From assembly GCA_963680875.1 (NCBI GenBank), contig OY804575.1, forward strand, positions 27,137,034 to 27,201,033: 64,000 nucleotides of DNA, in the 5' to 3' direction. The position numbers and the translations under genes were made by a program. Origin of the DNA: Bathymodiolus brooksi. Its lineage: Eukaryota > Mollusca > Bivalvia > Mytilida > Modiolidae. The notes beneath the pieces were generated by a model. The model did no database searches. It was not told the origin of the DNA and saw nothing but the letters and a program-made list of their open reading frames with translations. Positions 4,214-37,161 of the stretch are shown here, piece by piece (positions within the stretch are counted from its first letter, which is position 1; each line of letters starts with the position of its first letter).

Positions 4214-4758
4214 GTTTACCAACCACATCTAACAGCGCATTAAATCAGTCCACCACAGAGACGGAACACATGACAACTTCGCCTGCCGTAACATCGGGGT
4301 TACAGACAGCATCATCAACAAAGTCCACATCTACATGTGTTGACCATCCCGACTGTCAGCTTCTTCTGCAACAGTTCCCTATCTGTAACGCTTCTAACTC
4401 AGTCATGAATATATGTCCAAAAACATGTGGATCTTGTGCGATGACAACCACACCTTCCACTTGTATGGACAAGTCAGAAGACTGTCAAATTTTAATTGCC
4501 CATTTCCATGTTTGCACAGATATTGAATTTTCTTTAGAAAAATGTCAAAAGTCATGTAGCTTATGTAACTACCATACTACTACAATGTCCAACAGAGAAA
4601 CACCAATGCTTTTTACATCACCAAACAGAGAAACACCAGTAACTTCTACATCACCAAACAGAGAAACACCAGTACCTTCAACATTACTAAATAGAGAAAC
4701 ACCAATGCCTTCAACAGTACCAAATAGAGAAACTCCACCGCAAATACTGCAGTACTAG
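4214..4758 (+). CDS. Last exon of a secreted protein with two ShKT domains
   Basis: The exon begins after a pyrimidine-rich acceptor (tatttttaccag ending at 4213), is entered with two leftover bases, and stays open to TAG at 4756-4758. It encodes a Thr/Ser-rich linker, then two six-cysteine ShKT domains: the first runs from CVDHPDC to KTCGSC, the second from CMDKSEDC to CSLC. The tail has about five 11-residue repeats beginning NRETP. ShKT domains are common in mollusc extracellular proteins, often as protein-protein or matrix modules; nothing here indicates a venom toxin. Upstream exons, including a signal peptide, were not identified. The ATG at 4270 is internal to the exon and is unlikely to be the real start. 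The sequence from 4574 onward is part of the array, so only this copy is joined to the rest of the gene. Confidence 0.75.
4591..4740 (+). repeat. 33-bp coding repeats (NRETP tail)
   Basis: The core agagaaacacca recurs every 33 bp or so, encoding NRETP followed by a variable MPST- or VPST-like stretch. The last unit is cut short (NRETPPQ) before the stop. In A2-A4 the first unit reads NKETP because of one base change. Confidence 0.8.
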
Positions 4759-6182
4759 AATTTGTATTTAAAAACCTGCATGAATTTTGATACCCTATAA
4801 ATCACCATACATCTTTGAAAAATGAAAGTTTGTCCCAAAGCGTAATACAACTTTCTTTATATAAATTCATTTGCACTATCCGATCTTATCAAAACAAATT
4901 TTTCACAATGAAGAAATCAGGAACCGGTTTCTAGTAATTTCTTGTAACATAAATTATAGCTACACAGTATATTCAAATAAGAAGCTTGGACATTTTTGAT
5001 AAAAGTTAGTCCCCAATATAGCAGTACTTTTTTTTATCCCTAAAAATTGTTTGCGAACTCGTAAAAAATTTTCACTTACTAGTTTCAATTTGGAAATAAA
5101 TTGAACATAAATGAGCTACCGGGTATATGACATTTTTTTTGCAAGAAATGCCAATATGAATTGTAAGAATATTATTTTGAAATAAATGATATGTTAATAT
5201 TTTGATTTGATGTTTATTGAGAATAGTAGATAATAAGAACTATATACCTGGTTAGTTTATTATGACAATACAAGATATCACCTAGAAATAGCACAGGATG
5301 TCCGCAGGAACACGTCACCTTCGTTCTTCACTCTCTCTGTCGACTATCGTCCGTAATATTAGGAAAATTCACCTTTTTTCAATACAGCTTGACCAAATAA
5401 TTATTTAGGAAATAATTCAACTTAGATCGTACTCACAAAGTTTGTGTTTTTGAACCGATGATAAGTTCAATTTAGTCACCCTACCTAAATCAAGAACGTT
5501 TGAGAGACTCTTACAGAAATGTAAAAAATAGTTATTTGCCTATGTTCCTCATTCACGACTTGTCACTTGATTTATAACAAGAGTATTACGAAGGATGCTT
5601 CTAGCGGTGCATGAACTACTTTACCTTCCAGATTACCATAGTTCACCACGGTTTTTATTGTGGTTCGTATTGCTCAATCTTTAGTTTTTGTAGATCATTG
5701 TTTGCCCTTTTGTCCCTTTTCTTTGGTCATTGTATTCTCTATCTTCTTCGACTTACGGCTTCTGATTACCCCTTTGGTATCTTCAAACCTTTCAGAGAAT
5801 TATAAATGATATTGTTTTGTTAGCTTTACAGCAGTACACGATACATACTTTATAAGTGTCCGATTTATGACTATTTTTAAATAACAATATCTACAATGCA
5901 AAATCTGATTTGTTGTTGGCTTGATAATGGGGGTATGAAAAACACATGTCGACACGAGATTTGGAAAACAACTAATTGCATAGTGTCTGTGATTTGCGTT
6001 CTTTTCCTATACCTGAATATTCTAACAATGGACATATTTAAAAAAAAAAAAAAAATTAGCACAAAATAGACCGTTTTGAAAATATAAAGCCAACCTTTTC
6101 CCGATTTATTTCGTGAACATGCCACCCAAAAATTTGTCGTCACTACAGTATATGATCACTAGTAGTTTCAATGGACCAATTC
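4759..6182. other. 3' UTR and spacer of segment A; contains a mussel-type repeat
   Basis: No gene is seen. The first part is the likely 3' UTR of the ShKT gene. Around 5635-5800 (tagatcattgtttgcccttt, then ttacccctttggtatcttc) the sequence resembles a very common mussel dispersed repeat; its 64-codon open frame is repeat-derived. The same stretch recurs in A2 (14318-15739), A3 (23896-25317) and A4 (33474-34895). Confidence 0.55.
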
Positions 6183-6282
6183 AGAAATGACGTTGCATTA
6201 TGGGTAAAAAAAATTACGAGGACGCTACGACGCCATATTTATTGAGCCAGAAAACGTAAACAAAATCAGCTGAGCCGTAACA

Positions 6283-6693
6283 ATGCCAAATATTTGCATC
6301 ATTTGTCACAGGACTTCCAGAAAATTCAAAAATATCAATTTCATACCATTTCCTAAGAAATTTGAAATACGAGAAAAATGGTTGAAAGCCCTTAAATTGA
6401 CTGAAAACGATCTGAAAGCGTCAAGTCGAGTTTACTCTTTTCATTTCTTTGATGGCGAACGTAAGAAAAATGACGTTCCGTCTCTCGAAATTGGAGAAAA
6501 ATATGGTGCAAAGAGTGGTAGGAAAAATCCTAAAGATAAAATGAGACAATATGAAAAGAACCAAGTGAAGCAAAACGGCAAAAAATTTAATAATACTTCC
6601 CAAAAATCTCCCCACCCGGAGGTCACAAGCTTGCCGGTATCTGAACTTAATCATGTTGAGAAAATCGAAGTGGGACCGTCTGCCGTTTGGTGA
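6283..6693 (+). CDS. THAP-like zinc-finger ORF, A1 copy (degenerate finger)
   Basis: The 136-codon ORF starts at an ATG with a plausible context (gtaacaatg). Residues 1-60 have the layout of a THAP DNA-binding domain: Cys5 and Cys8, the conserved FPK near 23-25, Trp33, and an SFHF segment with His54. THAP fingers use a C2CH set of zinc ligands, and the third ligand, expected just before SFHF, is Tyr51 here. The C-terminal 75 residues are Lys/Asn-rich and have no recognised domain. The ORF may be a first exon (a gtatct donor-like site lies near 6635) or a relic of a gene or DNA transposon that used a THAP domain. All four copies share the Tyr, so the change predates the array. Confidence 0.55.
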   Translation: MPNICIICHRTSRKFKNINFIPFPKKFEIREKWLKALKLTENDLKASSRVYSFHFFDGERKKNDVPSLEIGEKYGAKSGRKNPKDKMRQYEKNQVKQNGKKFNNTSQKSPHPEVTSLPVSELNHVEKIEVGPSAVW

Positions 6694-6697
6694 TAAC

Positions 6698-6850
6698 GTT
6701 AAGAATCCGTAAATCGAAGGACAGACAACACAATTGCCAAACAAAAAGAAAAAGGACAAAAGGACAAACAACGATCTACGAAACATGCACATAAAACTAA
6801 ACTAAAGATGGAGTAACACGAACTCCACTAAAAACCGGGAGTAAATGGAG
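6698..6850. repeat. Dispersed mussel-type repeat inside A1
   Basis: Shares the aatccgtaaatcgaaggaca start and the cactaaaaaccggg end with the block at 2866-3060. It directly follows the stop of the THAP-like ORF, so the ORF's 3' end may be repeat-derived. Copies lie at about 16255-16408, 25833-25986 and 35411-35564. Confidence 0.75.
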
Positions 6851-6961
6851 ACAAACTTTTAAAAAAAAAGAATATAATTGATATTCATTTTCATCTTTGT
6901 CACACATATTATATATAAACAGCTACACAATGATTTACAATGATAAAAAAATGGATATAAT

Positions 6962-8187
6962 TTATCTGTAGGACGACCTACTTCTATGTCTACCACCTTG
7001 TGACCTTGAACTATCCTGTCGTTTGAAACCCGATTCTCGTTCGTTATTGTGACGACCTCTTTGGTCTCTATAGCTATCTCTATATCTGTCATGGTCAGAC
7101 GATTGTTTATTATTGGATGATCGCATGCGCGACGTGGAATTACTACGTTGTTTCCCTTGGTCTCCTCGTCGGGACCGCATCCCTTCATTTTCTATATCGT
7201 CGACATCCTTGTGTCTTCTATGTGAGTCAGTACGTCCCCTTCTTTGACTAGATGATCTCTCGCTGGTATGTCTGTTATCGCGTTTTCTGTGGTCATCATA
7301 TCGATCATCGCGATATCTACTATCATCATATCGATCATCGCGATATTTACGATCATCGTATCGATCATCGCGATATCTACGATCATCATATCGATCGTTT
7401 TGTCTATTCTGTCTATCGTGATATCGATCTGAAACCGATGATAGATAAGTAGCACCGCTATCGTCCGTGTGAACACTTTCTGTTTTATGTCTGTGACCAG
7501 TACTATTTCTGTGTTCATTGTTATATTTATCATGTTTATGTTTCATATCGTCTCTGTGAGTATACCTCCCCCTTCCTTTATCATCTGAATCATCATCTTC
7601 ATCGTCTCTACTTTTGTGTCTTTTAGACATTTCTCTATCTCTTCCTCTAGATTCTATTCTATCTCTGTGTCTGTCTCTCTCCTTTTCATTCTTTTTCACA
7701 GAATCACTTCTCTCTTTATGTTTGTTCCCTTCTCTTTCAGTTTTTCTCACTGAGTCACCACGAGATCGTGTCTCCTTTGAGGACAAATTATCATGGTATT
7801 TTTCTTTTTCACTCTTTCTAGCGGAATCAACAACATCCGGATAGTTTATATTCTCTTCCTCTCTATCATTTCGATAACTCCTTCTACTTTTTTTATCTCT
7901 CGAAAACTCCTCTTGATTCGAACGATTGTTTTGATCCGTACTGTTATGGCTTTTCACGTCTTTTGCATGTTCCCCTTTTATGTTTGAAGACGCCACACTT
8001 GTTCCGTCATTTGAAAAACCATGATTGTCATAACTTTTAGATGATCTAGATTTAGATATGCCGTCACTGCTAGTTGAATCTTTCTCACTTTTTTTCGAAA
8101 CATCCGAGAACGCAACATGTGAATGAGATCGGAAGGATCTTCTGCTACTCCCCGGAGCAATTCCACAGTTCGACAATGGTTGTTCAG
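6962..8187 (-). pseudogene. Detached last exon of an Arg/Ser/Asp-rich protein (A1)
   Basis: On the minus strand a strong acceptor (tttttctttacag, just above 8187) opens an exon of about 408 codons ending at TAA in 6962-6964. The product is very hydrophilic, rich in Arg, Ser, Asp, Lys and His, with RS, RD and ERD runs and four 10-residue repeats of the RYDDRxYRDD type; it ends RSRSSYR. Such low-complexity RS/RD tails occur in nuclear RNA-processing proteins, but no structured domain is present, so the protein is not named. The upstream exons should lie at higher coordinates; here the LINE L1 intervenes and then unrelated DNA, so this copy is probably not part of a working gene. Confidence 0.6.
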
Positions 8188-8675
8188 CTGTAAAGAAAAA
8201 TAAGAAGATATTGTTATTACCAAATATGACATAATTATTCCCTATCATAGTGTTGCCATTTAAACTATCAGAGGAACGACTGAAACAAAGTTCATTAAGA
8301 AAAAATATATAACGTCTACGTGTTTATTTGACATGTTTGGCTTTCACGTGTCTTTCCACTATGGCAAACATACTTTTTCTGAAAGCTAAACCGAAAATAT
8401 TGTTAGTTAAAATAAAAAAAATACTCAGGTTATGTCCCCTTGGTGATAGACGTGTCTAACATTACTCTTGCAAGTTTTCGTTAATTATATGTGTTTTACT
8501 GGATATATTCAGAAGATATTTGGTGAGATCACACAATTTTACACGAAAACAAACATAATTAACTTTCCATGATCAGAAACATTACAGAATGTGATATTTA
8601 CTTTGTTTACATGTTCCAACATTACACAACTATGAGCTGTACTCACTTTTTCAATTGACGACTTTCTCACATATA

Positions 8676-10514
8676 ATGGATCATAACGTTAATTCGAGTA
8701 AAAATCTAGTCTATACAGATCTCCAAACTTGTTCATTACCATGTGGTCAAAATAAATTTACTGAAAATATCAGTTCTACAGATAGTAGTGAAATTCATTT
8801 ACTACGGGAATTTCTCCCCCACGATGGTTTGTGTGATTTTCAATCCACCACCGTTGATATTAACCCGAATCCATCTGATATCATCTTACAACGAGTCGAA
8901 GACGAATGCAACGGCTTACCACGGGACACATTTATTTCTAATTTGATTAAATTGTGTAATAATGACACTGAATCATTAGAACAGTTACGCCTTCAATATT
9001 TTATCATTACCAAGAAAAAAATGGATTTCCCGTTCCCATCCGCAGTGTTAAAGAAAAGAATTCACCCCAAAACAAAAACGGGTGAGCCATTGATAAATAA
9101 ACTAGGTCGTGACTGTTTCCTTCTACGCCTGGCATCTAAAGGTGAATATTCAGATGATTTAAAGGATGTTTTCAATCTGAAATCATCCGCGAGAAACAAT
9201 TCATGTGTAGACTCTGAAGTAGTTACCTCTACCCCACATACATGTTCAGACTACTCCGTACTTGAAACCTTGATCAAAATTGAGAGTTCAATGCTTGAGA
9301 TGAAAGTTAACTATGAAAAAGAACAATCAGTATTAAATGATAAAATAGATAATCTCTATAAAACAAATGAAAAACTTGACTATAATTTCAACAAGCAGAA
9401 AGAACGTTTAAATAATGTACAAACCCAACTGAATTCGACCAGAAACGCAAACACAAAATTGAATGAAACTATCACCAGTCTTGAAAAACAAATTAAAGAA
9501 TTATTGACTCATCAATCTGAATTGAAGCGTGGTCACATTGAGCAAAAGAACATGAAACGAACTACAGACTCCACATTCAATGAAATAAAAGAAAGCGTAA
9601 AACATAACGCGAACTTAATTGAGAAGTGTAAGAAAAAATCAGACAGTACATCTCTTCTGGCATACGATCTTAAAATGCGTCTTGATTCCGAAGCTAGTCG
9701 TATAACTAATATTACCGACTCTCGTGCAACTGGTATCTGCAGTCTAAAAACTCGTGTTCAAGTAATCGGTGAATGTGTTAAAGATATGGAATCGACTGTC
9801 GAAGAAATCCCAAGTAAAGTGAAGTCGTGCTTAGCGTCGATAACTGAAATCCGTAAACGTGTGAATGCCATAGAAAAGAACTGTAATCAAATAAACACTC
9901 CAGCTACAAAGTCATACGCCATGGCTATTTCTGAAGTACCACGGAAAGAGAACACGGTCCTGTCAGGTGAACCACCTCCACAACTAGTAAAGTCTACACA
10001 ATCATCTCTATCAAATCCAAATTTTATTTTTGATAATCCTACTAGTATTATAGCACCTACAAAGAATATTGAAACTGTCACAAATCACACTGACCACTAC
10101 ATAAAAAACATTTCTGAAACTAATACTTTCAACGAGACTAGTGATACTAGGACCACTATTCCTGCATACTTTCCTAGATCAATGTGTAACCCAACTTCAA
10201 TCGACTTCAAAGGGGTTGTGAAAAAAACAAGACGAATTAGTAGATTCTATATTGGTGGTATTGATAAGTCCTGTTCATCCGAAGAGTCAATGCGCAAGTT
10301 TCTCTTGGATCGGAATATACATGTAACATTTTTGCGATATTTTTATCGTCCATCAAGAGGAACTGCGGCTGCTCAATTAAATGTTAATATGGACGACGAA
10401 CATCTATTGAAACAACCAAACTTTTGGCCAGAAGGAATTTTCATGAAGCCGTGGTTACCGTGGGAACAATTTATTAATGAACATTCCATTGAACAAAAAC
10501 ATGGACGGTACTAA
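8676..10514 (+). CDS. LINE ORF1 protein, intact (L1)
   Basis: About 612 codons, taking the first real ATG (8676). ORF1 proteins of LINEs bind element RNA and form ribonucleoprotein particles. The N-terminal third is acidic and includes a conserved-looking KLGRDCFLLRLA segment; roughly residues 210-300 form a Lys/Glu/Asn-rich coiled coil; residues near 520-600 (FYIGGIDK, then FLRYFYRPSRGTAAAQLNV, then FWPEGIFMKPWLPW) look like the RRM-type domain of mollusc LINE ORF1 proteins. No CCHC knuckle is present. It overlaps the start of ORF2, in another frame. This is the only one of the three copies with an uninterrupted ORF1. Confidence 0.8.
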   Translation: MDHNVNSSKNLVYTDLQTCSLPCGQNKFTENISSTDSSEIHLLREFLPHDGLCDFQSTTVDINPNPSDIILQRVEDECNGLPRDTFISNLIKLCNNDTESLEQLRLQYFIITKKKMDFPFPSAVLKKRIHPKTKTGEPLINKLGRDCFLLRLASKGEYSDDLKDVFNLKSSARNNSCVDSEVVTSTPHTCSDYSVLETLIKIESSMLEMKVNYEKEQSVLNDKIDNLYKTNEKLDYNFNKQKERLNNVQTQLNSTRNANTKLNETITSLEKQIKELLTHQSELKRGHIEQKNMKRTTDSTFNEIKESVKHNANLIEKCKKKSDSTSLLAYDLKMRLDSEASRITNITDSRATGICSLKTRVQVIGECVKDMESTVEEIPSKVKSCLASITEIRKRVNAIEKNCNQINTPATKSYAMAISEVPRKENTVLSGEPPPQLVKSTQSSLSNPNFIFDNPTSIIAPTKNIETVTNHTDHYIKNISETNTFNETSDTRTTIPAYFPRSMCNPTSIDFKGVVKKTRRISRFYIGGIDKSCSSEESMRKFLLDRNIHVTFLRYFYRPSRGTAAAQLNVNMDDEHLLKQPNFWPEGIFMKPWLPWEQFINEHSIEQKHGRY

Positions 10515-13500
10515 ACGTCAACTCACGTTAATGTGTTGGAACTGTAGAGGTATATTTTCCTGTATACCTTACTTATCGGAATGTTTAATGGAGACAGACG
10601 TATCAATTTGTGCCTTGTCAGAACATTGGTTGAGAACATTTCAATTACACGTTCTAGATACGATCGACGATAATTATGTATCCATTGGAAATAGTTCAGA
10701 TGAAGGCAACCCAACGGCAATAACGTGTAATTATCGATCCGGAGTAGCCTTTCTTATCTCTAAAGACATTTATCCGTTTGTGTCTGTTATAGAAGTTGAC
10801 AGCAACAGGATTACTGGCATTGAATTGTCCATACCTGGATGTGAAAGCTACTTTATATTCTCGCTATACCTACCTGCAATAACCCAATCTAGCGATTCTT
10901 TTAGAGACCACATTGATCTTCTTTCAGAATTAGTATCTGTTTATAATGAAATTGGAACAGTTATTTTAATGGGTGACTTTAACTCCAAAATTGGTGGCCC
11001 AAGATACCAAGTTACAAACAATGTCAGAGCAAAGCTGTGTAGTTCTTTAATGGGTGAACATAACCTTTTCTCAGTTAATATGGAACTATTCTGTAAAGGC
11101 CCAATCGTCACTTTCCAATCTTACGATGGTGGACCTTCAACATGTATTGATCATATTTTAATGAACAATGCGAAGAAACATACAGTTATTCATGCTGAAG
11201 TGTTGGATAACCACTCTTTTGCACTATCTGATCACCACCCCGTACTCTGCACTCTAATACTAGAATCTGTTATCCCGACATGGCCTGTTAAAAATTATGA
11301 ACAGTCGGTTTCATGGGACAAAGCACACAGAACACATAAAACATTAGATTATTCTTATGCTGTATCACAGAACTTATGGACATTAGAATTTCCACAAGTT
11401 AATGACACCGATACAATAGAAATATATTATTCTAAAATTATTGATGCGATTAAAAAGGCAGAGAACGAAACACTTCCTTATAAAAAATTCAAGCGCCATG
11501 CGAAACCATATTGGAATGATAATCTGACAAATCTCCGTGATTCTATGCGCACTCATCGCATTAACTGGATTAACAACTGCCATTGCTATAACCAAACCTG
11601 TACTTATTTTCAACGCTACAAGTCGACAAAAAAAGTGTTTCGTGAATTCTTAAGGAAAGCATTGGATGAATATGAAAGTTCATTAGCTAAACAAATTGAG
11701 GAAGATATTGACTATGATCAGAAGTCCGTATGGTCTATAATAAATAAACGTAAGAAAAAACCTTCTATTTGTAACGCATTAAAGAAAGGAGATAGTGTTT
11801 TTACCGATCCAAATGATGTCAGCAATATATGGTATGACCATTTTCGGAACGTCTTTTCGCCGTCTACATACAGCGATCAAGGCCGTCAGGATGAAATATC
11901 TGAACGGGTTTCTACTATTCGAACACTAGTAAAAGAACGAATTCGTGACGATGAAATGGTAATCAAGCTATCAGATGTGAGTGAAATTTGTACACGCCTT
12001 AAAAACAACAAAGCTTGCGGTCACGACAATATTTCATATGAACATATAAAATATGGCGGGAAACTCCTTATCAAACACTTATGCTACCTGTTTAACTTAT
12101 CGCTACAATATGCGTATATTCCGAATGATTGGAGGAAAAGCATCATCATTTTATTATACAAAGGTGATAATAAACCAAGAACTGACACAAACTCATATCG
12201 AGGTATCTCTCTTGTGCCAAGCATAACCAAAATTTTCGAAAAAATACTAGACTTACTTCTAACCTCTATACGAAAAGACTTTCCTAACGTTCAACAAGTT
12301 GCTTTATCAAAAACTTTTATCTAGTATGAATGCATCTTTCAATCTTCAGGAAGTAACAATACATCATGTCGAAAAAAACGGAACAATAATAATAATCCTA
12401 CTTGACAGCACGAAAGCGTTTGACACTGTTCCTCATGACGGTCTTCGCGTCAAATTGTTCGATTATGGTGCAGCTGGAAAGCTATGGCTTCTGCTCGACA
12501 ACATGTATAATAACTTAAGTAGTTCGGTCTTATGTAACGGAATATTATCAAAGTGGTTTAAACATAATCGTGGTGTGCGACAAGGAAGCGCATTGTCAGC
12601 GAAATTGTATCTTATATTCATTAATGATTTAATAAACGAACTTGTATTATGCAACAAAGGTGCCTACTTGTACGACTTAAATGCAAGCTCACCTGTCCAA
12701 GCAGATGATATTTCCATTATCGCAACTAACCGTGAATCTGCTCAAGAAATGGTCGAAATCTGCGAACGTTACAGCAAAGCATGGAGTTTTTCGTTTTCAC
12801 CAGCAAAAAGTAAGTTATTGCAGTTTGGAAAACATTCTATAGGACGAAATGTTATTTTGTATAATGAACCTATTACCCAAGTATCCAGTGCGAAACACGT
12901 CGGTATTGTATTGGACACATCATTAAAGACTATGGAACGTACATTGAATGCTTGTAGATCACTCAGAGGTACTGTAATGTCCATGTTACGTACTGGTGTT
13001 CATCCAGCGGTCTTAAATCCCCTCGTATGTGCAAAAATAATTCGTCAAGTTTGCTACCCCAAGACCTTATATGGATGTGAGTTATGGCGTGAACTGAGTA
13101 AGACAGAAACGCTCATGTTAGAACGGACCCATCGTTACATATGTAAGACTATTCAAGGACTACCAAAACTTACTAGAAGCGATATGTGTCTATCACTAAT
13201 CGGATGGTACACAATTAATGCATTCATCAGTGAAAGAAAACTTCTATTCTTTGGGAGAATCTGTAATTTACCACAGACGGTCATATCATTTCGTATTCTA
13301 ATACGAAGACTTTTTGTTATAAAACATTCAGCAAATAACCACAAACCACTTGGATTTACAAATGACTGTGTGAAACTTTTTCAAAAATATAATCTGATGG
13401 AATTTGTAGATGTATTTCTAATGAATAGGACATTTCCATTAATGCGGATTTGGAAACATTTAGTGTATGATACCATTCATAAGTACGAACTTAGTGAGTG

Positions 13501-13951
13501 GACACAACGACTTAATGACGATGATGAATTTGACAGTTTCAAGAGTATACATCAAGTATACCAACCTCATCCGGCTTGGACAGTCGCTTTAAGTCATCCA
13601 CATCTCCGCAAACAAGCGCACTATATTGTATCACTGTGCTGCTTAATACGTAATACCACTAATAACTTTTTATGTGACAAGTGTGGTAAATTTTTCAATG
13701 ACCCGTGTATTCACGCCACAACATCATGCGACTATCTATCAAACATTCGCGATAAATTTTGGACTGAAATTATAAGTTTGGACCCTATAACATTCAGTGC
13801 TTTTCTGGGATGTAAATCTGATGACGAACTATGTTTCATCTTACTATCGTGCGACACTGATTTTGAACTTGACAATGATAATATGGCCAGATTTCAATTA
13901 CTATGTGTTACCTACGTATACAGATGTTGTAACGGATTTAACTGCCAATGA
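10477..13951 (+). pseudogene. LINE ORF2, endonuclease and reverse transcriptase, frameshifted (L1)
   Basis: ORF2 is the endonuclease plus reverse transcriptase that nicks the target and copies element RNA. The first part (10477-12324; ATGs at 10477 and 10501) has the APE-type endonuclease residues WNCRG (21-25), Glu49 in SEHW, GDFN (166-169) and SDHH (251-254), followed by RT motifs NNKACGHDNI and YRGISLV. The second part (open from 12299, stop in 13949-13951) has RT motif A (LDSTKAFDTV), motif B (GVRQGSALS), motif C (QADD, where many families have YADD or FADD) and a C-terminal CDKC...H...C zinc knuckle. The two parts are in different frames; one extra T in gctttat near 12302 would explain it. 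All three copies share this break. Confidence 0.85.
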
Positions 13952-14102
13952 ACTCGAATACTGTCGAAAGTCTTATTATACTTGAATATTGAATTAACAG
14001 TCAATTATTGGATTATCTCTCTTTTTTTGTTTCATTCCTTATAAACTGCATTTTTTCTTTTAATTGTAACATTGTCATTTGATATATTGTTTGTACAACT
14101 TT

Positions 14103-14132
14103 ACTCTCCTAATGGAGGCAAATAAAGAATAT
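14103..14132 (+). promoter_or_regulatory. LINE 3' end: hairpin plus AATAAA
   Basis: The last 30 bases hold a small perfect hairpin, ctcc-taat-ggag, followed by gcaaataaagaatat. Short 3' hairpins are the recognition element for reverse transcriptase in several LINE groups with no poly(A) tail; that role here is inferred. Identical in L2 and L3. Confidence 0.55.
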
Positions 14133-14317
14133 ATACTACTACAATGTCCAACAAAGAAACACCAATGCTTTTTACATCACCAAACAGAGAAACACCAGTA
14201 ACTTCTACATCACCAAACAGAGAAACACCAGTACCTTCAACATTACTAAATAGAGAAACACCAATGCCTTCAACAGTACCAAATAGAGAAACTCCACCGC
14301 AAATACTGCAGTACTAG
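14133..14317 (+). pseudogene. Orphan 3' piece of the ShKT exon (A2)
   Basis: Only the NRETP tail repeats, the stop and the 3' UTR are present; both ShKT domains and the splice acceptor are missing because segment A starts inside the exon. It follows the LINE end directly. Confidence 0.85.
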
Positions 14318-16250: not shown

Positions 16251-16540
16251 TAACGTTAAGAATCCGTAAATCGAAGGACAGACAACACAATTGCCAAACC
16301 AAAAGAAAAAGGACAAAAGGACAAACAACGATCTACGAAACATGCACATAAAACTAAACTAAAGATGGAGTAACACGAACTCCACTAAAAACCGGGAGTA
16401 AATGGAGACAAACTTTAAAAAAAAAAAGAATATAATTGATGTAATGGATGGAGTGTATGATATTCATTTTCATCTTTGTCACACATATTATATATAAACA
16501 GCTACACAATGATTTACAATGATAAAAAAATGGATATAAT

Positions 16541-25828: not shown

Positions 25829-26118
25829 TAACGTTAAGAATCCGTAAATCGAAGGACAGACAACACAATTGCCAAACCAAAAGAAAAAGGACAAAAGGAC
25901 AAACAACGATCTACGAAACATGCACATAAAACTAAACTAAAGATGGAGTAACACGAACTCCACTAAAAACCGGGAGTAAATGGAGACAAACTTTAAAAAA
26001 AAAAAGAATATAATTGATGTAATGGATGGAGTGTATGATATTCATTTTCATCTTTGTCACACATATTATATATAAACAGCTACACAATGATTTACAATGA
26101 TAAAAAAATGGATATAAT

Positions 26119-27344
26119 TTATCTGTAGGACGACCTACTTCTATGTCTACCACCTTGTGACCTTGAACTATCCTGTCGTTTGAGACCCGATTCTCGTTCG
26201 TTATTGTGACGACCTCTTTGGTCTCTATAGCTATCTCTATATCTGTCATGGTCAGACGATTGTTTATTATTGGATGATCGCATGCGCGACGTGGAATTAC
26301 TACGTTGTTTCCCTTGGTCTCCTCGTCGGGACCGCATCCCTTCATTTTCTATATCGTCGACATCCTTGTGTCTTCTATGTGAGTCAGTACGTCCCCTTCT
26401 TTGACTAGATGATCTCTCGCTGGTATGTCTGTTATCGCGTTTTCTGTGGTCATCATATCGATCATCGCGATATCTACTATCATCATATCGATCATCGCGA
26501 TATTTACGATCATCGTATCGATCATCGCGATATCTACGATCATCATATCGATCGTTTTGTCTATTCTGTCTATCGTGATATCGATCTGAAACCGATGATA
26601 GATAAGTAGCACCGCTATCGTCCGTGTGAACACTTTCTGTTTTATGTCTGTGACCAGTACTATTTCTGTGTTCATTGTTATATTTATCATGTTTATGTTT
26701 CATATCGTCTCTGTGAGTATACCTCCCCCTTCCTTTATCATCTGAATCATCATCTTCATCGTCTCTACTTTTGTGTCTTTTAGACATTTCTCTATCTCTT
26801 CCTCTAGATTCTATTCTATCTCTGTGTCTGTCTCTCTCCTTTTCATTCTTTTTCACAGAATCACTTCTCTCTTTATGTTTGTTCCCTTCTCTTTCAGTTT
26901 TTCTCACTGAGTCACCACGAGATCGTGTCTCCTTTGAGGACAAATTATCATGGTATTTTTCTTTTTCACTCTTTCTAGCGGAATCAACAACATCCGGATA
27001 GTTTATATTCTCTTCCTCTCTATCATTTCGATAACTCCTTCTACTTTTTTTATCTCTCGAAAACTCCTCTTGATTCGAACGATTGTTTTGATCCGTACTG
27101 TTATGGCTTTTCACGTCTTTTGCATGTTCCCCTTTTATGTTTGAAGACGCCACACTTGTTCCGTCATTTGAAAAACCATGATTGTCATAACTTTTAGATG
27201 ATCTAGATTTAGATATGCCGTCACTGCTAGTTGAATCTTTCTCACTTTTTTTCGAAACATCCGAGAACGCAACATGTGAATGAGATCGGAAGGATCTTCT
27301 GCTACTCCCCGGAGCAATTCCACAGTTCGACAATGGTTGTTCAG
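26119..27344 (-). pseudogene. Detached last exon of the Arg/Ser/Asp-rich protein (A3)
   Basis: Same protein as the A2 copy, open to the stop, with the acceptor intact; L3 lies where the upstream intron should continue. Confidence 0.6.
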
Positions 27345-27832
27345 CTGTAAAGAAAAATAAGAAGATATTGTTATTACCAAATATGACATAATTATTCCCT
27401 ATCATAGTGTTGCCATTTAAACTATCAGAGGAACGACTGAAACAAAGTTCATTAAGAAAAAATATATAACGTCTACGTGTTTATTTGACATGTTTGGCTT
27501 TCACGTGTCTTTCCACTATGGCAAACATACTTTTTCTGAAAGCTAAACCGAAAATATTGTTAGTTAAAATAAAAAAAATACTCAGGTTATGTCCCCTTGG
27601 TGATAGACGTGTCTAACATTACTCTTGCAAGTTTTCGTTAATTATATGTGTTTTACTGGATATATTCAGAAGATATTTGGTGAGATCACACAATTTTACA
27701 CGAAAACAAACATAATTAACTTTCCATGATCAGAAACATTACAGAATGTGATATTTACTTTGTTTACATGTTCCAACATTACACAACTATGAGCTGTACT
27801 CACTTTTTCAATTGACGACTTTCTCACATATA

Positions 27833-29670
27833 ATGGATCATAACGTTAATTCGAGTAAAAATCTAGTCTATACAGATCTCCAAACTTGTTCATTACCATG
27901 TGGTCAAAATAAATTAACTGAAAATATCAGTTCTACAGATAGTAGTGAAATTCATTTACTACGGGAATTTCTCCCCCACGATGGTTTGTGTGATTTTCAA
28001 TCCACCACCGTTGATATTAACCCGAATCCATCTGATATCATCTTACAACGAGTCGAAGACGAATGCAACGGCTTACCACGGGACACATTTATTTCTAATT
28101 TGATTAAATTGTGTAATAATGACACTGAATCATTAGAACAGTTACGCCTTCAATATTTTATCATTACCAAGAAAAAAATGGATTCCCGTTCCCATCCGCA
28201 GTGTTAAAGAAAAGAATTCACCCCAAAACAAAAACGGGTGAGCCATTGATAAATAAACTAGGTCGTGACTGTTTCCTTCTACGCCTGGCATCTAAAGGTG
28301 AATATTCAGATGATTTAAAGGATGTTTTCAATCTGAAATCATCCGCGAGAAACAATTCATGTGTAGACTCTGAAGTAGTTACCTCTACCCCACATACATG
28401 TTCAGACTACTCCGTACTTGAAACCTTGATCAAAATTGAGAGTTCAATGCTTGAGATGAAAGTTAACTATGAAAAAGAACAATCAGTATTAAATGATAAA
28501 ATAGATAATCTCTATAAAACAAATGAAAAACTTGACTATAATTTCAACAAGCAGAAAGAACGTTTAAATAATGTACAAACCCAACTGAATTCGACCAGAA
28601 ACGCAAACACAAAATTGAATGAAACTATCACCAGTCTTGAAAAACAAATTAAAGAATTATTGACTCATCAATCTGAATTGAAGCGTGGTCAGATTGAGCA
28701 AAAGAACATGAAACGAACTACAGACTCCACATTCAATGAAATAAAAGAAAGCGTAAAACATAACGCGAACTTAATTGAGAAGTGTAAGAAAAAATCAGAC
28801 AGTACATCTCTTCTGGCATACGATCTTAAAATGCGTCTTGATTCCGAAGCTAGTCGTATAACTAATATTACCGACTCTCGTGCAACTGGTATCTGCAGTC
28901 TAAAAACTCGTGTTCAAGTAATCGGTGAATGTGTTAAAGATATGGAATCGACTGTCGAAGAAATCCCAAGTAAAGTGAAGTCGTGCTTAGCGTCGATAAC
29001 TGAAATCCGTAAACGTGTGAATGCCATAGAAAAGAACTGTAATCAAATAAACACTCCAGCTACAAAGTCATACGCCATGGCTATTTCTGAAGTACCACGG
29101 AAAGAGAACACGGTCCTGTCAGGTGAACCACCTCCACAACTAGTAAAGTCTACACAATCATCTCTATCAAATCCAAATTTTATTTTTGATAATCCTACTA
29201 GTATTATAGCACCTACAAAGAATATTGAAACTGTCACAAATCACACTGACCACTACATAAAAAACATTTCTGAAACTAATACTTTCAACGAGACTAGTGA
29301 TACTAGGACCACTATTCCTGCATACTTTCCTAGATCAATGTGTAACCCAACTTCAATCGACTTCAAAGGGGTTGTGAAAAAAACAAGACGAATTAGTAGA
29401 TTCTATATTGGTGGTATTGATAAGTCCTGTTCATCCGAAGAGTCAATGCGCAAGTTTCTCTTGGATCGGAATATACATGTAACATTTTTGCGATATTTTT
29501 ATCGTCCATCAAGAGGAACTGCGGCTGCTCAATTAAATGTTAATATGGACGACGAACATCTATTGAAACAACCAAACTTTTGGCCAGAAGGAATTTTCAT
29601 GAAGCCGTGGTTACCGTGGGAACAATTTATTAATGAACATTCCATTGAACAAAAACATGGACGGTACTAA
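27833..29670 (+). pseudogene. LINE ORF1, frameshifted (L3)
   Basis: Carries the same single-T loss as L2, giving a short first part ending at 28207 and a long second part open from 28201 to 29670. Sharing this lesion shows L2 and L3 descend from one frameshifted parent. Confidence 0.85.
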
Positions 29671-32600
29671 ACGTCAACTCACGTTAATGTGTTGGAACTG
29701 TAGAGGTATATTTTCCTGTATACCTTACTTATCGGAATGTTTAATGGAGACAGACGTATCAATTTGTGCCTTGTCAGAACATTGGTTGAGAACATTTCAA
29801 TTACACGTTCTAGATACGATCGACGATAATTATGTATCCATTGGAAATAGTTCAGATGAAGGCAACCCAACGGCAATAACGTGTAATTATCGATCCGGAG
29901 TAGCCTTTCTTATCTCTAAAGACATTTATCCGTTTGTGTCTGTTATAGAAGTTGACAGCAACAGGATTACTGGCATTGAATTGTCCATACCTGGATGTGA
30001 AAGCTACTTTATATTCTCGCTATACCTACCTGCAATAACCCAATCTAGCGATTCTTTTAGAGACCACATTGATCTTCTTTCAGAATTAGTATCTGTTTAT
30101 AATGAAATTGGAACAGTTATTTTAATGGGTGACTTTAACTCCAAAATTGGTGGCCCAAGATACCAAGTTACAAACAATGTCAGAGCAAAGCTGTGTAGTT
30201 CTTTAATGGGTGAACATAACCTTTTCTCAGTTAATATGGAACTATTCTGTAAAGGCCCAATCGTCACTTTCCAATCTTACGATGGTGGACCTTCAACATG
30301 TATTGATCATATTTTAATGAACAATGCGAAGAAACATACAGTTATTCATGCTGAAGTGTTGGATAACCACTCTTTTGCACTATCTGATCACCACCCCGTA
30401 CTCTGCACTCTAATACTAGAATCTGTTATCCCGACATGGCCTGTTAAAAATTATGAACAGTCGGTTTCATGGGACAAAGCACACAGAACACATAAAACAT
30501 TAGATTATTCTTATGCTGTATCACAGAACTTATGGACATTAGAATTTCCACAAGTTAATGACACCGATACAATAGAAATATATTATTCTAAAATTATTGA
30601 TGCGATTAAAAAGGCAGAGAACGAAACACTTCCTTATAAAAAATTCAAGCGCCATGCGAAACCATATTGGAATGATAATCTGACAAATCTCCGTGATTCT
30701 ATGCGCACTCATCGCATTAACTGGATTAACAACTGCCATTGCTATAACCAAACCTGTACTTATTTTCAACGCTACAAGTCGACAAAAAAAGTGTTTCGTG
30801 AATTCTTAAGGAAAGCATTGGATGAATATGAAAGTTCATTAGCTAAACAAATTGAGGAAGATATTGACTATGATCAGAAGTCCGTATGGTCTATAATAAA
30901 TAAACGTAAGAAAAAACCTTCTATTTGTAACGCATTAAAGAAAGGAGATAGTGTTTTTACCGATCCAAATGATGTCAGCAATATATGGTATGACCATTTT
31001 CGGAACGTCTTTTCGCCGTCTACATACAGCGATCAAGGCCGTCAGGATGAAATATCTGAACGGGTTTCTACTATTCGAACACTAGTAAAAGAACGAATTC
31101 GTGACGATGAAATGGTAATCAAGCTATCAGATGTGAGTGAAATTTGTACACGCCTTAAAAACAACAAAGCTTGCGGTCACGACAATATTTCATATGAACA
31201 TATAAAATATGGCGGGAAACTCCTTATCAAACACTTATGCTACCTGTTTAACTTATCGCTACAATATGCGTATATTCCGAATGATTGGAGGAAAAGCATC
31301 ATCATTTTATTATACAAAGGTGATAATAAACCAAGAACTGACACAAACTCATATCGAGGTATCTCTCTTGTGCCAAGCATAACCAAAATTTTCGAAAAAA
31401 TACTAGACTTACTTCTAACCTCTATACGAAAAGACTTTCCTAACGTTCAACAAGTTGCTTTATCAAAAACTTTTATCTAGTATGAATGCATCTTTCAATC
31501 TTCAGGAAGTAACAATACATCATGTCGAAAAAAACGGAACAATAATAATAATCCTACTTGACAGCACGAAAGCGTTTGACACTGTTCCTCATGACGGTCT
31601 TCGCGTCAAATTGTTCGATTATGGTGCAGCTGGAAAGCTATGGCTTCTGCTCGACAACATGTATAATAACTTAAGTAGTTCGGTCTTATGTAACGGAATA
31701 TTATCAAAGTGGTTTAAACATAATCGTGGTGTGCGACAAGGAAGCGCATTGTCAGCGAAATTGTATCTTATATTCATTAATGATTTAATAAACGAACTTG
31801 TATTATGCAACAAAGGTGCCTACTTGTACGACTTAAATGCAAGCTCACCTGTCCAAGCAGATGATATTTCCATTATCGCAACTAACCGTGAATCTGCTCA
31901 AGAAATGGTCGAAATCTGCGAACGTTACAGCAAAGCATGGAGTTTTTCGTTTTCACCAGCAAAAAGTAAGTTATTGCAGTTTGGAAAACATTCTATAGGA
32001 CGAAATGTTATTTTGTATAATGAACCTATTACCCAAGTATCCAGTGCGAAACACGTCGGTATTGTATTGGACACATCATTAAAGACTATGGAACGTACAT
32101 TGAATGCTTGTAGATCACTCAGAGGTACTGTAATGTCCATGTTACGTACTGGTGTTCATCCAGCGGTCTTAAATCCCCTCGTATGTGCAAAAATAATTCG
32201 TCAAGTTTGCTACCCCAAGACCTTATATGGATGTGAGTTATGGCGTGAACTGAGTAAGACAGAAACGCTCATGTTAGAACGGACCCATCGTTACATATGT
32301 AAGACTATTCAAGGACTACCAAAACTTACTAGAAGCGATATGTGTCTATCACTAATCGGATGGTACACAATTAATGCATTCATCAGTGAAAGAAAACTTC
32401 TATTCTTTGGGAGAATCTGTAATTTACCACAGACGGTCATATCATTTCGTATTCTAATACGAAGACTTTTTGTTATAAAACATTCAGCAAATAACCACAA
32501 ACCACTTGGATTTACAAATGACTGTGTGAAACTTTTTCAAAAATATAATCTGATGGAATTTGTAGATGTATTTCTAATGAATAGGACATTTCCATTAATG

Positions 32601-33107
32601 CGGATTTGGAAACATTTAGTGTATGATACCATTCACAAGTACGAACTTAGTGAGTGGACACAACGACTTAATGACGATGATGAATTTGACAGTTTCAAGA
32701 GTATACATCAAGTATACCAACCTCATCCGGCTTGGACAGTCGCTTTAAGTCATCCACATCTCCGCAAACAAGCGCACTATATTGTATCACTGTGCTGCTT
32801 AATACGTAATACCACTAATAACTTTTTATGTGACAAGTGTGGTAAATTTTTCAATGACCCGTGTATTCACGCCACAACATCATGCGACTATCTATCAAAC
32901 ATTCGCGATAAATTTTGGACTGAAATTATAAGTTTGGACCCTATAACATTCAGTGCTTTTCTGGGATGTAAATCTGATGACGAACTATGTTTCATCTTAC
33001 TATCGTGCGACACTGATTTTGAACTTGACAATGATAATATGGCCAGATTTCAATTACTATGTGTTACCTACGTATACAGATGTTGTAACGGATTTAACTG
33101 CCAATGA
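29633..33107 (+). pseudogene. LINE ORF2, frameshifted (L3)
   Basis: Parts 29633-31480 and 31455-33107; the protein sequences are the same as in L1 and L2, with the shared break just before RT motif A. Confidence 0.85.
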
Positions 33108-33288
33108 ACTCGAATACTGTCGAAAGTCTTATTATACTTGAATATTGAATTAACAGTCAATTATTGGATTATCTCTCTTTTTTTGTTTCATTCCTTATAA
33201 ACTGCATTTTTTCTTTTAATTGTAACATTGTCATTTGATATATTGTTTGTACAACTTTACTCTCCTAATGGAGGCAAATAAAGAATAT

Positions 33289-33473
33289 ATACTACTACAA
33301 TGTCCAACAAAGAAACACCAATGCTTTTTACATCACCAAACAGAGAAACACCAGTAACTTCTACATCACCAAACAGAGAAACACCAGTACCTTCAACATT
33401 ACTAAATAGAGAAACACCAATGCCTTCAACAGTACCAAATAGAGAAACTCCACCGCAAATACTGCAGTACTAG
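33289..33473 (+). pseudogene. Orphan 3' piece of the ShKT exon (A4)
   Basis: Tail repeats, stop and UTR only, directly after L3. Confidence 0.85.
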
Positions 33474-34995
33474 AATTTGTATTTAAAAACCTGCATGAAT
33501 TTTGATACCCTATAAATCACCATACATTTTTGAAAAATGAAAGTTTGTCCCAAAGCGTAATACAACTTTCTTTATATAAATTCATTTGCACTATCCGATC
33601 TTATCAAAACAAATTTTTCACAATGAAGAAATCAGGAACCGGTTTCTAGTAATTTCTTGTAACATAAATTATAGCTACACAGTATATTCAAATAAGAAGC
33701 TTGGACATTTTTGATAAAAGTTAGTCCCCAATATAGCAGTACTTTTTTTTATCCCTAAAAATTGTTTGCGAACTCGTAAAAAATTTTCACTTACTAGTTT
33801 CAATTTGGAAATAAATTGAACATAAATGAGCTACCGGGTATATGACATTTTTTTTGCAAGAAATGCCAATATGAATTGTAAGAATATTATTTTGAAATAA
33901 ATGATATGTTAATATTTTGATTTGATGTTTATTGAGAATAGTAGATAATAAGAACTATATACCTGGTTAGTTTATTATGACAATACAAGATATCACCTAG
34001 AAATAGCACAGGATGTCCGCAGGAACACGTCACCTTCGTTCTTCACTCTCTCTGTCGACTATCGTCCGTAATATTAGGAAAATTCACCTTTTTTCAATAC
34101 AGCTTGACCAAATAATTATTTAGGAAATAATTCAACTTAGATCGTACTCACAAAGTTTGTGTTTTTGAACCGATGATAAGTTCAATTTAGTCACCCTACC
34201 TAAATCAAGAACGTTTGAGAGACTCTTACAGAAATGTAAAAAATAGTTATTTGCCTATGTTCCTCATTCACGACTTGTCACTTGATTTATAACAAGAGTA
34301 TTACGAAGGATGCTTCTAGCGGTGCATGAACTACTTTACCTTCCAGATTACCATAGTTCACCACGGTTTTTATTGTGGTTCGTATTGCTCAATCTTTAGT
34401 TTTTGTAGATCATTGTTTGCCCTTTTGTCCCTTTTCTTTGGTCATTGTATTCTCTATCTTCTTCGACTTACGGCTTCTGATTACCCCTTTGGTATCTTCA
34501 AACCTTTCAGAGAATTATAAATGATATTGTTTTGTTAGCTTTACAGCAGTACACGATACATACTTTATAAGTGTCCGATTTATGACTATTTTTAAATAAC
34601 AATATCTACAATGCAAAATCTGATTTGTTGTTGGCTTGATAATGGGGGTATGAAAAACACATGTCGACACGAGATTTGGAAAACAACTAATTGCATAGTG
34701 TCTGTGATTTGCGTTCTTTTCCTATACCTGAATATTCTAACAATGGACATATTTAAAAAAAAAACAAATTAGCACAAAATAGACCGTTTTGAAAATATAA
34801 AGCCAACCTTTTCCCGATTTATTTCGTGAACATGCCACCCAAAAATTTGTCGTCACTACAGTATATGATCACTAGTAGTTTCAATGGACCAATTCAGAAA
34901 TGACGTTGCATTATGGGTAAAAAAAATTACGAGGACGCTACGACGCCATATTTATTGAGCCAGAAAATGTAAACAAAATCAGCTGAGCCGTAACA

Positions 34996-35406
34996 ATGCC
35001 AAATATTTGCATCATTTGTCACAGGACTTCCAGAAAATTCAAAAATATCAATTTCATACCATTTCCTAAGAAATTTGAAATACGAGAAAAATGGTTGAAA
35101 GCCCTTAAATTGACTGAAAACGATCTGAAAGCGTCAAGTCGAGTTTACTCTTTTCATTTCTTTGATGGCGAACGTAAGAAAAATGACGTTCCGTCTCTCG
35201 AAATTGGAGAAAAGTATGGTGCAAAGAGTGGTAGGAAAAATCCTAAAGATAAAATGAGACAATATGAAAAGAACCAAGTGAAGCAAAACGGCAAAAAATT
35301 TAATAATACTTCCCAAAAATCTCCCCACCCGGAGGTCACAAGCTTGCCGGTATCTGAACTTAATCATGTTGAGAAAATCGAAGTGGGACCGTCTGCCGTT
35401 TGGTGA
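34996..35406 (+). CDS. THAP-like ORF, A4 copy
   Basis: Same protein as the other three copies. The upstream region differs by one base (gaaaatgtaaac for gaaaacgtaaac). Confidence 0.5.
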   Translation: MPNICIICHRTSRKFKNINFIPFPKKFEIREKWLKALKLTENDLKASSRVYSFHFFDGERKKNDVPSLEIGEKYGAKSGRKNPKDKMRQYEKNQVKQNGKKFNNTSQKSPHPEVTSLPVSELNHVEKIEVGPSAVW

Positions 35407-35696
35407 TAACGTTAAGAATCCGTAAATCGAAGGACAGACAACACAATTGCCAAACCAAAAGAAAAAGGACAAAAGGACAAACAACGATCTACGAAACATG
35501 CACATAAAACTAAACTAAAGATGGAGTAACACGAACTCCACTAAAAACCGGGAGTAAATGGAGACAAACTTTAAAAAAAAAAAGAATATAATTGATGTAA
35601 TGGATGGAGTGTATGATATTCATTTTCATCTTTGTCACACATATTATATATAAACAGCTACACAATGATTTACAATGATAAAAAAATGGATATAAT

Positions 35697-36922
35697 TTAT
35701 CTGTAGGACGACCTACTTCTATGTCTACCACCTTGTGACCTTGAACTATCCTGTCGTTTGAGACCCGATTCTCGTTCGTTATTGTGACGACCTCTTTGGT
35801 CTCTATAGCTATCTCTATATCTGTCATGGTCAGACGATTGTTTATTATTGGATGATCGCATGCGCGACGTGGAATTACTACGTTGTTTCCCTTGGTCTCC
35901 TCGTCGGGACCGCATCCCTTCATTTTCTATATCGTCGACATCCTTGTGTCTTCTATGTGAGTCAGTACGTCCCCTTCTTTGACTAGATGATCTCTCGCTG
36001 GTATGTCTGTTATCGCGTTTTCTGTGGTCATCATATCGATCATCGCGATATCTACTATCATCATATCGATCATCGCGATATTTACGAGCATCGTATCGAT
36101 CATCGCGATATCTACGATCATCATATCGATCGTTTTGTCTATTCTGTCTATCGTGATATCGATCTGAAACCGATGATAGATAAGTAGCACCGCTATCGTC
36201 CGTGTGAACACTTTCTGTTTTATGTCTGTGACCAGTACTATTTCTGTGTTCATTGTTATATTTATCATGTTTATGTTTCATATCGTCTCTGTGAGTATAC
36301 CTCCCCCTTCCTTTATCATCTGAATCATCATCTTCATCGTCTCTACTTTTGTGTCTTTTAGACATTTCTCTATCTCTTCCTCTAGATTCTATTCTATCTC
36401 TGTGTCTGTCTCTCTCCTTTTCATTCTTTTTCACAGAATCACTTCTCTCTTTATGTTTGTTCCCTTCTCTTTCAGTTTTTCTCACTGAGTCACCACGAGA
36501 TCGTGTCTCCTTTGAGGACAAATTATCATGGTATTTTTCTTTTTCACTCTTTCTAGCGGAATCAACAACATCCGGATAGTTTATATTCTCTTCCTCTCTA
36601 TCATTTCGATAACTCCTTCTACTTTTTTTATCTCTCGAAAACTCCTCTTGATTCGAACGATTGTTTTGATCCGTACTGTTATGGCTTTTCACGTCTTTTG
36701 CATGTTCCCCTTTTATGTTTGAAGACGCCACACTTGTTCCGTCATTTGAAAAACCATGATTGTCATAACTTTTAGATGATCTAGATTTAGATATGCCGTC
36801 ACTGCTAGTTGAATCTTTCTCACTTTTTTTCGAAACATCCGAGAACGCAACATGTGAATGAGATCGGAAGGATCTTCTGCTACTCCCCGGAGCAATTCCA
36901 CAGTTCGACAATGGTTGTTCAG
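35697..36922 (-). CDS. Last exon of an Arg/Ser/Asp-rich protein, the copy joined to unique DNA (A4)
   Basis: This is the only copy whose upstream side (higher coordinates, minus strand) is not a LINE, so it is the best candidate for the exon used by the real gene. The acceptor (ctttacag above 36922), frame and stop match the other copies. It has one private change in the 10-residue repeat block (RYDARKY for RYDDRKY). No upstream exon was recognised between 37162 and 64000; the intron may be long or the exons may lie outside the window. The 20 or so codons before the acceptor, open in frame with an ATG, are intron sequence. Confidence 0.6.
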
Positions 36923-37161
36923 CTGTAAAGAAAAATAAGAAGATATTGTTATTACCAAATATGACATAATTATTCCCTATCATAGTGTTGCCATTTAAAC
37001 TATCAGAGGAACGACTGAAACAAAGTTCATTAAGAAAAAATATATAACGTCTACGTGTTTATTTGACATGTTTGGCTTTCACGTGTCTTTCCACTATGGC
37101 AAACATACCTTTTCTGAAAGCTAAACAGAAAATATTGTTAGTTAAAATAAAAAAAAATACT

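Follow-up and report, generated by a model that had tools for sequence, protein, structure and literature searches.

A 3.85-kb target duplication probably founded a LINE array in Bathymodiolus brooksi, and long flanking duplications recur at other copies of the same family

Target-site duplications (TSDs) of APE-type LINEs usually measure about 10-20 bp (PMC6895275), and the placing and making of the second joint is an old gap in the LINE integration mechanism (PMC2881922, PMC6895275). De novo insertions of engineered human L1 in NER-deficient cell lines were reported to carry TSDs of a few bp at the shortest and 5.3 kb at the longest, with a median of 1495 bp in the deficient cells, along with some target deletions; the authors proposed a distant second nick and pointed out that large TSDs could copy exons and could recombine (PMC5223499). 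In HeLa cells, L1 caused radical target changes in both directions, extremely long TSDs as well as deletions (Gilbert et al., in PMC2912911), which are described as confined to 5'-truncated copies (PMC2912911). In tumours, direct tandem duplications can have their ends bridged by a single L1, whose 3' joint lies at an endonuclease site and whose other end lies downstream; these events are described as somatic, rare and Mb-scale (PMC7058536). The rotifer element R9, which is rDNA-specific, has an exceptionally long TSD of 126 bp (cited in PMC6895275). Finally, at Drosophila Bar a retroelement of the LTR type (roo) sits at a tandem-duplication junction with empty outer edges, a structure ascribed to recombination of two separate roo copies (PMC13322080).

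We analysed 64,000 nucleotides (the window) of contig OY804575.1 of the bivalve Bathymodiolus brooksi (assembly GCA_963680875.1). Self-BLAST and segment comparison revealed a sharp-edged array at 4574-37161 in which copies of a host segment, A, alternate with copies of a LINE, L, in the order A-L-A-L-A-L-A (Table 1). Positions 4574-27582 and 14133-37161 share 99.8% identity, and identity beyond the outer array edges amounted to 0 bases in 6/6 comparisons, which bears out the earlier note's description of an array with LINE-free outer edges. The copy number is that of the assembly (2.0 Gb in 136 contigs). Units of 9.6 kb that are nearly identical are difficult to assemble. However, the array is embedded in a contig of 176 Mb, the private changes of its copies follow an ordered pattern and the same layout is found at loci independent of this one, of which two have just one LINE; we therefore see very little chance of an assembly artefact.

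Table 1. Features of the array and of the host genes within and across its edges (window coordinates).
Feature	Position	Strand	Length	Description
ShK-domain (Pfam) open frame	4186..4755	+		Stop-to-stop frame that begins in the left flank and crosses into A1
A1	4574-8425		3852 bp	Host DNA, left copy of the probable 3.85-kb target duplication
THAP-domain open frame	6274..6690	+		Inside A1, repeated in A2-A4
L1	8426-14132	+	5707 bp	Full-length LINE
LINE ORF1	8676..10511	+	612 aa	Open in L1; 1-base deletion in L2 and L3
LINE ORF2 region	10447..13948	+		Endonuclease and reverse transcriptase; one frameshift near 12263-12321
A2	14133-18004		3872 bp	Hybrid: mostly A4-like columns up to 2476, A1-like from 2802
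L2	18005-23710	+	5706 bp	
A3	23711-27582		3872 bp	Hybrid as A2; one mismatch to A2
L3	27583-33288	+	5706 bp	
A4	33289-37161		3873 bp	Right copy; continues into unique right flank without LINE
Host gene last coding exon	35700..36920	-		Within A4; corresponds to residues 222-617 of P0121, the Mytilus trossulus orthologue

Besides ORF1, L encodes an APE-type endonuclease together with a reverse transcriptase. Relatives of ORF1 are 608-621 aa long and align over 99-100% of the query. The ORF2 frameshift is common to L1, L2 and L3. Elsewhere in the family, the C4 copy holds RVT_1 and Exo_endo_phos within a single open frame, the best solved relatives being human L1 ORF2p, and one array of L copies has both frames open. 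L is a young APE-type LINE (non-LTR retrotransposon). Concatemers of the form LTR-internal-LTR have the same look, with A as the long terminal repeat and L as the interior of an LTR-type element. We rejected this reading, to which we assign next to no probability: A holds host exons, L gave no integrase match, and the flanks of other L copies differ from A and are unrelated to it. Furthermore, the first 1001 bp of A are fully matched in the assembly by the four array copies only; the two other matches were partial, at 70-71% identity.

The edges of L proved to be true LINE ends, as the earlier note had assumed. L ends in ...AATAAAGAATAT, and L1 begins with CA at 8426-8427, followed by GGTTATG...; this CA is absent from most other full-length copies. 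Nine other full-length rows begin between L positions 2 and 5 and share the terminus ...AATAAAGAATAT. They represent 7 distinct insertions, as the pair at C4:148 belongs to one array and C4:28 and C4:33 share both flanks. Across the family the 3' end is constant, the 5' end varies between complete copies and ones truncated as far as about 5340, and the tails are AT-repeats rather than poly(A). The family is sparse, its 3' end giving at least 42 rows in 2 Gb, and no copies of L were found in the public viral_contigs and genome_contigs collections. The window also holds a second LINE whose ends were not clear on one look.

Host genes cross both edges of the array. The ShK frame spans the left edge, which shows that the left flank and A1 were adjacent before the insertion. 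The right edge is spanned by the last intron of a P0121-like gene: its last coding exon, present also in A1, A2 and A3 and thus in four copies, lies in A4, and its upstream exons are found on the right of A4 at a distance of 51-60 kb, with none within the window. The match to residues 7-109 is interrupted by three stops, which probably stem from an intron. Because structures of two host genes cross the left and the right edge, the parent locus would have been an uninterrupted flank-A-flank.

The inner copies, A2 and A3, are A4-like in their 5' part and A1-like in their 3' part. All 8 changes private to A1 fall in columns 22-2476, where A4 has 1 private change against 4 beyond (Fisher P 0.007). 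Column 240, in which A2 groups with A1, is at odds with a single crossover. This direction of the hybrids matches the prediction for unequal crossing-over in flank-A-L-A-flank.

We surveyed the target sites of this one LINE family at 21 scorable sites, the window included. At 5 of them, direct repeats of 418, ~719, 916, ~928 and ~3860 bp end at both LINE ends. The large flanking duplications for which the earlier note had looked to other copies are thus present at C4:148.1M (916 bp), C15:16.95M (~928 bp), C8:9.47M (~719 bp) and C1:27.06M (418 bp). Three of the five loci are arrays with empty outer edges and two carry a single LINE; the copies are 5'-truncated at two loci and full-length in the window and on C4 and C15. 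A 28-bp duplication was found at one further site, and target deletions of 125 and 6 bp, measured against repeat copies without the LINE, at two, which shows that the position of the second joint can shift either way. The remaining 13/21 sites exhibited no clear duplication within the searched range, and a TSD of 10-20 bp above chance was found at none of the 21. Repeats of 9 bp (A-rich/AT-rich, C8:66.8M) and 8 bp (C16:86.7M) are at the edge of chance, reached by 4 and 7 of 240 mismatched pairs, respectively. A tentative 106-bp deletion at C8:66.8M, deduced from a 30-bp match, was left out of the counts. Genome-wide searches with the down-flanks of L021 and L029 matched high-copy repeats, of which 40/621 and 40/1501 candidates were scored, so that these two sites may yet have a distant second copy.

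The 3' joint reads C/(T)AT (the stroke marks the joint) at 6/8 readable sites, in duplications and deletions alike, although the drawing of maximal matches biases the base before the joint. The second-joint sites have no common motif; the 5' joints of full-length copies contain extra bases, and those of two truncated copies show microhomology. ATACT stands at the start and at the end of A, a coincidence with a chance of about 0.2%. It was dropped as a general target motif, as the other four long duplications have unlike ends.

Tandem duplications are common, and A could have been duplicated first, the LINE landing later exactly on the A-A junction. Such an order of events is hardly credible, since a base-exact hit would be required independently at five loci. 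A stronger candidate at first was the route described for Bar (PMC13322080): two insertions of the same LINE at opposite edges of A on different chromosomes, followed by unequal recombination inside the LINE. This would yield the exact anatomy observed, one element between copies and empty outer sites, without an unusual insertion. It would also account for ATACT at both ends of A, which the single-insertion account leaves to chance, and for the divergence of A1 and A4 (18 mismatches in 3.85 kb) exceeding that of L1 and L3 (3 in 5.7 kb). We now consider it improbable because four further loci share the anatomy: in a sparse family, 5/21 sites would each need two same-orientation insertions within 0.4-3.9 kb. 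Furthermore, at the two loci with 5'-truncated copies both insertions would have to suit the crossover, and from the measured deletions it is evident that single insertions already have a loose second joint. Recurrence at five loci thus favors single insertions.

Taken with the host genes that cross the edges, the survey supports the parent flank-A-LINE-A-flank postulated in the earlier note, and we regard a single LINE insertion with a 3.85-kb target duplication, expanded into an array by unequal crossing-over, as very probable. Target-primed reverse transcription would have copied one LINE RNA into the left edge of A. The far end of the cDNA (the LINE 5' end), which usually joins 10-20 bp away, would then have been attached to a DNA end ~3.85 kb downstream, so that repair duplicated the stretch between both joints. 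Left and right A would have differed by about a dozen changes at the time of recombination. Unequal crossing-over of right A with left A would have created a second LINE along with a hybrid inner A, and another round would have added the third LINE, the host exons inside A being copied along as the array grew.

The distant DNA end could be a second nick, as in the earlier note's proposal that the target was nicked twice, 3.85 kb apart. A different free end, such as one on the sister chromatid, would give the same product. Joining of the cDNA end to a break or nascent strand of the sister chromatid, or its extension there, is the model proposed for L1-mediated tandem duplications in tumours (PMC7058536). 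The lack of a common motif at second-joint sites is consistent with it, and the extra 5'-joint bases and microhomology fit end joining or template jumping. However, a distant second nick accounts for the same data, and the tumour cases are Mb-sized as opposed to the kb-sized duplications at L. We hold sister-chromatid joining to be a substantial possibility, if not the expected one.

L resembles L1 in NER-deficient cells in that direct repeats longer than 100 bp extend to both element ends at 5/21 sites. It differs from what is reported there as a natural element in an animal genome rather than an engineered one in repair-deficient human lines, with three of its five large duplications already arrays, no short-TSD majority and AT-repeat tails (PMC5223499). 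Like the tumour events, L bridges direct tandem duplications, but at several loci of an assembled genome (PMC7058536). Full-length copies of L are involved as well, unlike in the HeLa account (PMC2912911), and its duplications of 418 bp to 3.9 kb are variable and lie at scattered sites, unlike that of R9 (PMC6895275). Human L1 is already known to make target-site duplications of kilobase size in cultured cells deficient in repair; their repeated occurrence in a natural germline family looks new, and either the element or host repair may be responsible.

L offers a natural case in which the second-joint step looks loose, with about 20 sites for comparison. It also suggests a direct route from insertion to tandem array, the large duplication giving the homology and unequal crossing-over completing the process, of which the single A-L-A, two-unit and three-unit stages are all readable in the same genome. 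In the window, this route would have given a host gene four copies of its last exon, the duplication enabling the growth of the array. Whether the family dispenses with close second-strand cleavage as a built-in trait, so that the cDNA end can be joined at any point up to a few kb from the first nick, is in our estimation nearly an even proposition. If so, ordinary germline insertion would create kb-scale target duplications or deletions, and this LINE would regularly give rise to duplicated exons and to new tandem arrays.

Four copies of the host segment A alternate with three of the LINE L in the window array, giving a tandem unit of 9.56-9.58 kb. We observed that its outer edges are sharp, as six comparisons revealed no identical base past them, confirming that the outermost A copies run into DNA without the LINE, as the earlier note had claimed. 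A search of the assembly with the first 1001 bp of A returned the four array copies as the only full-length matches, along with two partial matches (70-71%). Short interspersed repeats are present within A, including one with copies 71-77% alike in the left flank (window 2840-3083) and at A1 positions 972-1215 and 2129-2265. Elsewhere, the window contains an open frame encoding a DDE_3 transposase-like product of 413 aa (42866-44104, minus strand), a satellite-like array of ~150 copies of a 44-bp unit with adjacent copies ~99% alike (44696-51295), and a second LINE unlike L (54418-58996). This LINE has an ORF1-like frame, a reverse-transcriptase frame (RVT_1, E 4e-37) and a further frame overlapping the latter; its ends were sought and not found.

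Arrays, target changes and host gene matches. The window lies at C1:27137034-27201033 of the 2.0-Gb assembly; B and D, duplicated target segments; Lt, 5'-truncated LINE; P0121, Mytilus trossulus orthologue of the host gene in A.
Feature	Position	Strand	Target change	Remark
A1	window 4574-8425
L1	window 8426-14132
A2	window 14133-18004
L2	window 18005-23710
A3	window 23711-27582
L3	window 27583-33288
A4	window 33289-37161			ends at C1 27174194
P0121 residues 7-109	C1 27234336-27234638	minus		three internal stops, probably intron
P0121 residues 109-155	C1 27231215-27231352	minus
P0121 residues 156-219	C1 27225496-27225684	minus
P0121 residues 222-617	each of A1, A2, A3, A4 (C1)	minus
Window array			duplication, 3852-3873 bp	three LINEs
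C15:16.95M			duplication, ~928 bp	copies 94-96%; ~622-bp insert between 13-bp repeats in upstream copy
C4:148.1M	C4:148136000-148155800		duplication, 916 bp	B-L-B-L-B (L023, L024)
C8:9.47M			duplication, ~719 bp	D-Lt-D-Lt-D; LINE truncated at 3092
C1:27.06M			duplication, 418 bp	LINE truncated at 4435
C2:4.66M			duplication, 28 bp
C19:27.88M			deletion, 125 bp
C1:98.0M			deletion, 6 bp

L codes for ORF1, an APE-type endonuclease and a reverse transcriptase, and its closest named protein relatives are from Mytilus. One ORF2 frameshift is common to L1, L2 and L3, and of these only L1 has ORF1 open over its full length. Its 5.7 kb is near the mean of bivalve Proto2 elements (5675 bp, PMC10294476), a likeness of length alone that is no proof of clade. 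Parts of ORF1 have 99-100% identical matches in two proteins from metagenome-type sources (P0126 and P0127, contigs of 7.0 and 1.6 kb), so public data from elsewhere also contain near-identical copies. With the first 560 bp of L as query, 14 rows were listed: the three window copies, nine starting at L position 2-5, and two that are 5'-truncated. The nine full-length rows outside the window represent seven insertions, because the C4:148 pair forms one array and the C4:28 and C4:33 copies have the same two flanks. Each of the nine extends to L position 5707 (...AATAAAGAATAT), and in most of them AT repeats come next. Therefore, the edges of L are the ends of the LINE, as first proposed.

Host genes cross both edges of the array. 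On the left, an open frame with a ShK domain (4186-4755) crosses 4573/4574. For the host gene in A, four relatives (49-52%) were found in three Mytilus species, which makes a mytilid outside Mytilus the probable source of the DNA. One of them, P0121 of M. trossulus, maps to C1. Since A4 ends with the upstream exons still farther right, the last intron of the P0121-like gene spans the right edge. This gene structure indicates a parent with a single A between its original flanks, in line with the earlier note. A long terminal repeat was also considered and rejected, as A is host DNA.

With the last 560 bp of L as query, at least 42 rows were obtained (best 40 of 50 candidates scored), 27 of which, representing 23 loci, were examined; C12:0.43M, from the 5' search, was left out of the count as it is without a 3' end. 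C4:28.26M (L028) and C4:33.45M (L029), 5.2 Mb apart on one chromosome, have both flanks in common (93.6% downstream), indicating that the inserted LINE was duplicated along with its surroundings. Counting them as one insertion gave 22 sites, 21 of them scorable, as C14:100.78M sits in a minisatellite. LINE 3' ends lie at C15:16.95M, 17.00M and 17.03M, within 80 kb, and the latter two may have arisen from the first by segmental duplication. Two older copies (92%) lie in opposite orientation ~21 kb apart, at C3:26.06M (+) and C3:26.08M (-).

Direct repeats of at least 418 bp end at both LINE ends at 5 of the 21 scorable sites. The window array is thus joined by four further sites with large flanking duplications (418 to ~928 bp), a recurrence for which the earlier note had suggested looking. 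Three of these five loci are arrays whose outer edges carry no LINE, and the stretch examined contains a single LINE at both C15:16.95M and C1:27.06M. Target deletions were measured at two of the 21 sites by comparison with a different copy of the target repeat that lacks L. Thirteen sites exhibited no clear duplication within the ranges searched, and at most of them longer ones could lie beyond: ~12 kb either side (C1:154.1M), 2 kb (C4:28/33M, C4:88.6M), 2.8-6.3 kb upstream (C8:66.8M, C14:73.9M, C4:2.6M, C8:57.5M, C16:90.6M), 5.4 kb (C6:126.9M, C4:70.1M) and 3 kb (C16:86.7M, C13:30.0M, C15:27.1M). The downstream flank of C4:88.6M has no second copy longer than ~140 bases among the best 40 of 105 candidates. 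Furthermore, when 16 copies were compared with 240 mismatched flank pairs, the usual 10-20-bp target duplication was not seen: C2 alone clearly exceeded chance, and the repeats at C8:66.8M (AT-rich, 9 bp) and C16:86.7M (8 bp) were reached by 4 and 7 of the 240 pairs, respectively.

Exchange between two separate LINE insertions, as described for Bar (PMC13322080), yields this anatomy at a single locus, but five such events would be needed in a family that is sparse, making it very improbable. Still more far-fetched is a tandem duplication of A preceding the LINE, which requires a base-exact landing five times. ATACT stands at both the start and the end of A, and two random places have a 5-mer in common in 0.18% of draws; since the ends of the other four duplications are not alike, we leave this to chance.

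Between A1 and A4 there are 18 mismatches and 25 gap columns, vs 3 mismatches and 1 gap column between L1 and L3. So, before the recent expansion, A-L-A either already had diverged A copies or was built from two haplotypes. With a run of adjacent columns taken as one change, the eight A1-private changes all fall within columns 22-2476 and the five A4-private changes at columns 1682, 2802, 3823, 3841 and 3863 (Fisher P 0.007). A2 and A3 are accordingly hybrids, A4-like over most of the first part and A1-like in the last; the exception is column 240, where A2 has the A1 state and A3 the A4 state. Crossing-over between the right A and the left A in flank-A-L-A-flank would leave this pattern.

Six of eight readable sites have 3' joints (slash, undisturbed site) reading ACC/ATACT, GGC/TATTA, TCC/TATTG, GCC/ATTTA, TGC/TATGC and CAC/ATAAT, where drawing by maximal match biases the base preceding the joint; C15 (AT run) and C8 (TTA/TTTTT) diverge. 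The motif was found at duplication sites and at deletion sites, a pattern that fits a first nick of a single kind and a second step that varies. Extra bases (2-10) occur at the five readable full-length 5' joints (window, C4, C15, C2 and C19), microhomology at those of C8 and C1:27.06M, and the second-joint sites are unlike one another. These joints fit a form of target-primed reverse transcription that would join the cDNA end at variable distance on either side. Published schemes derive duplications from downstream and deletions from upstream second cleavage (PMC2881922), staggers usually measure 10-20 bp in APE LINEs and 126 bp in R9 (PMC6895275), and L1 duplications in NER-deficient human cells reach 5.3 kb (median 1495 bp), for which a distant second nick is the authors' own speculation (PMC5223499). 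Such a nick could have made the second joint here. Joining to the sister chromatid, as modelled for the duplications that L1 mediates in tumours (PMC7058536), is a serious contender somewhat short of an even chance; a distant second nick accounts equally for the present data.

In the open-access papers examined, kb-scale LINE target duplications come from cultured cells or tumours, and none reports recurrent kb germline duplications by a natural LINE family. The LINE copies of the C4 array differ at 2 of 5711 bases and both ORFs are open in both, so intact copies of this family exist or did until recently.
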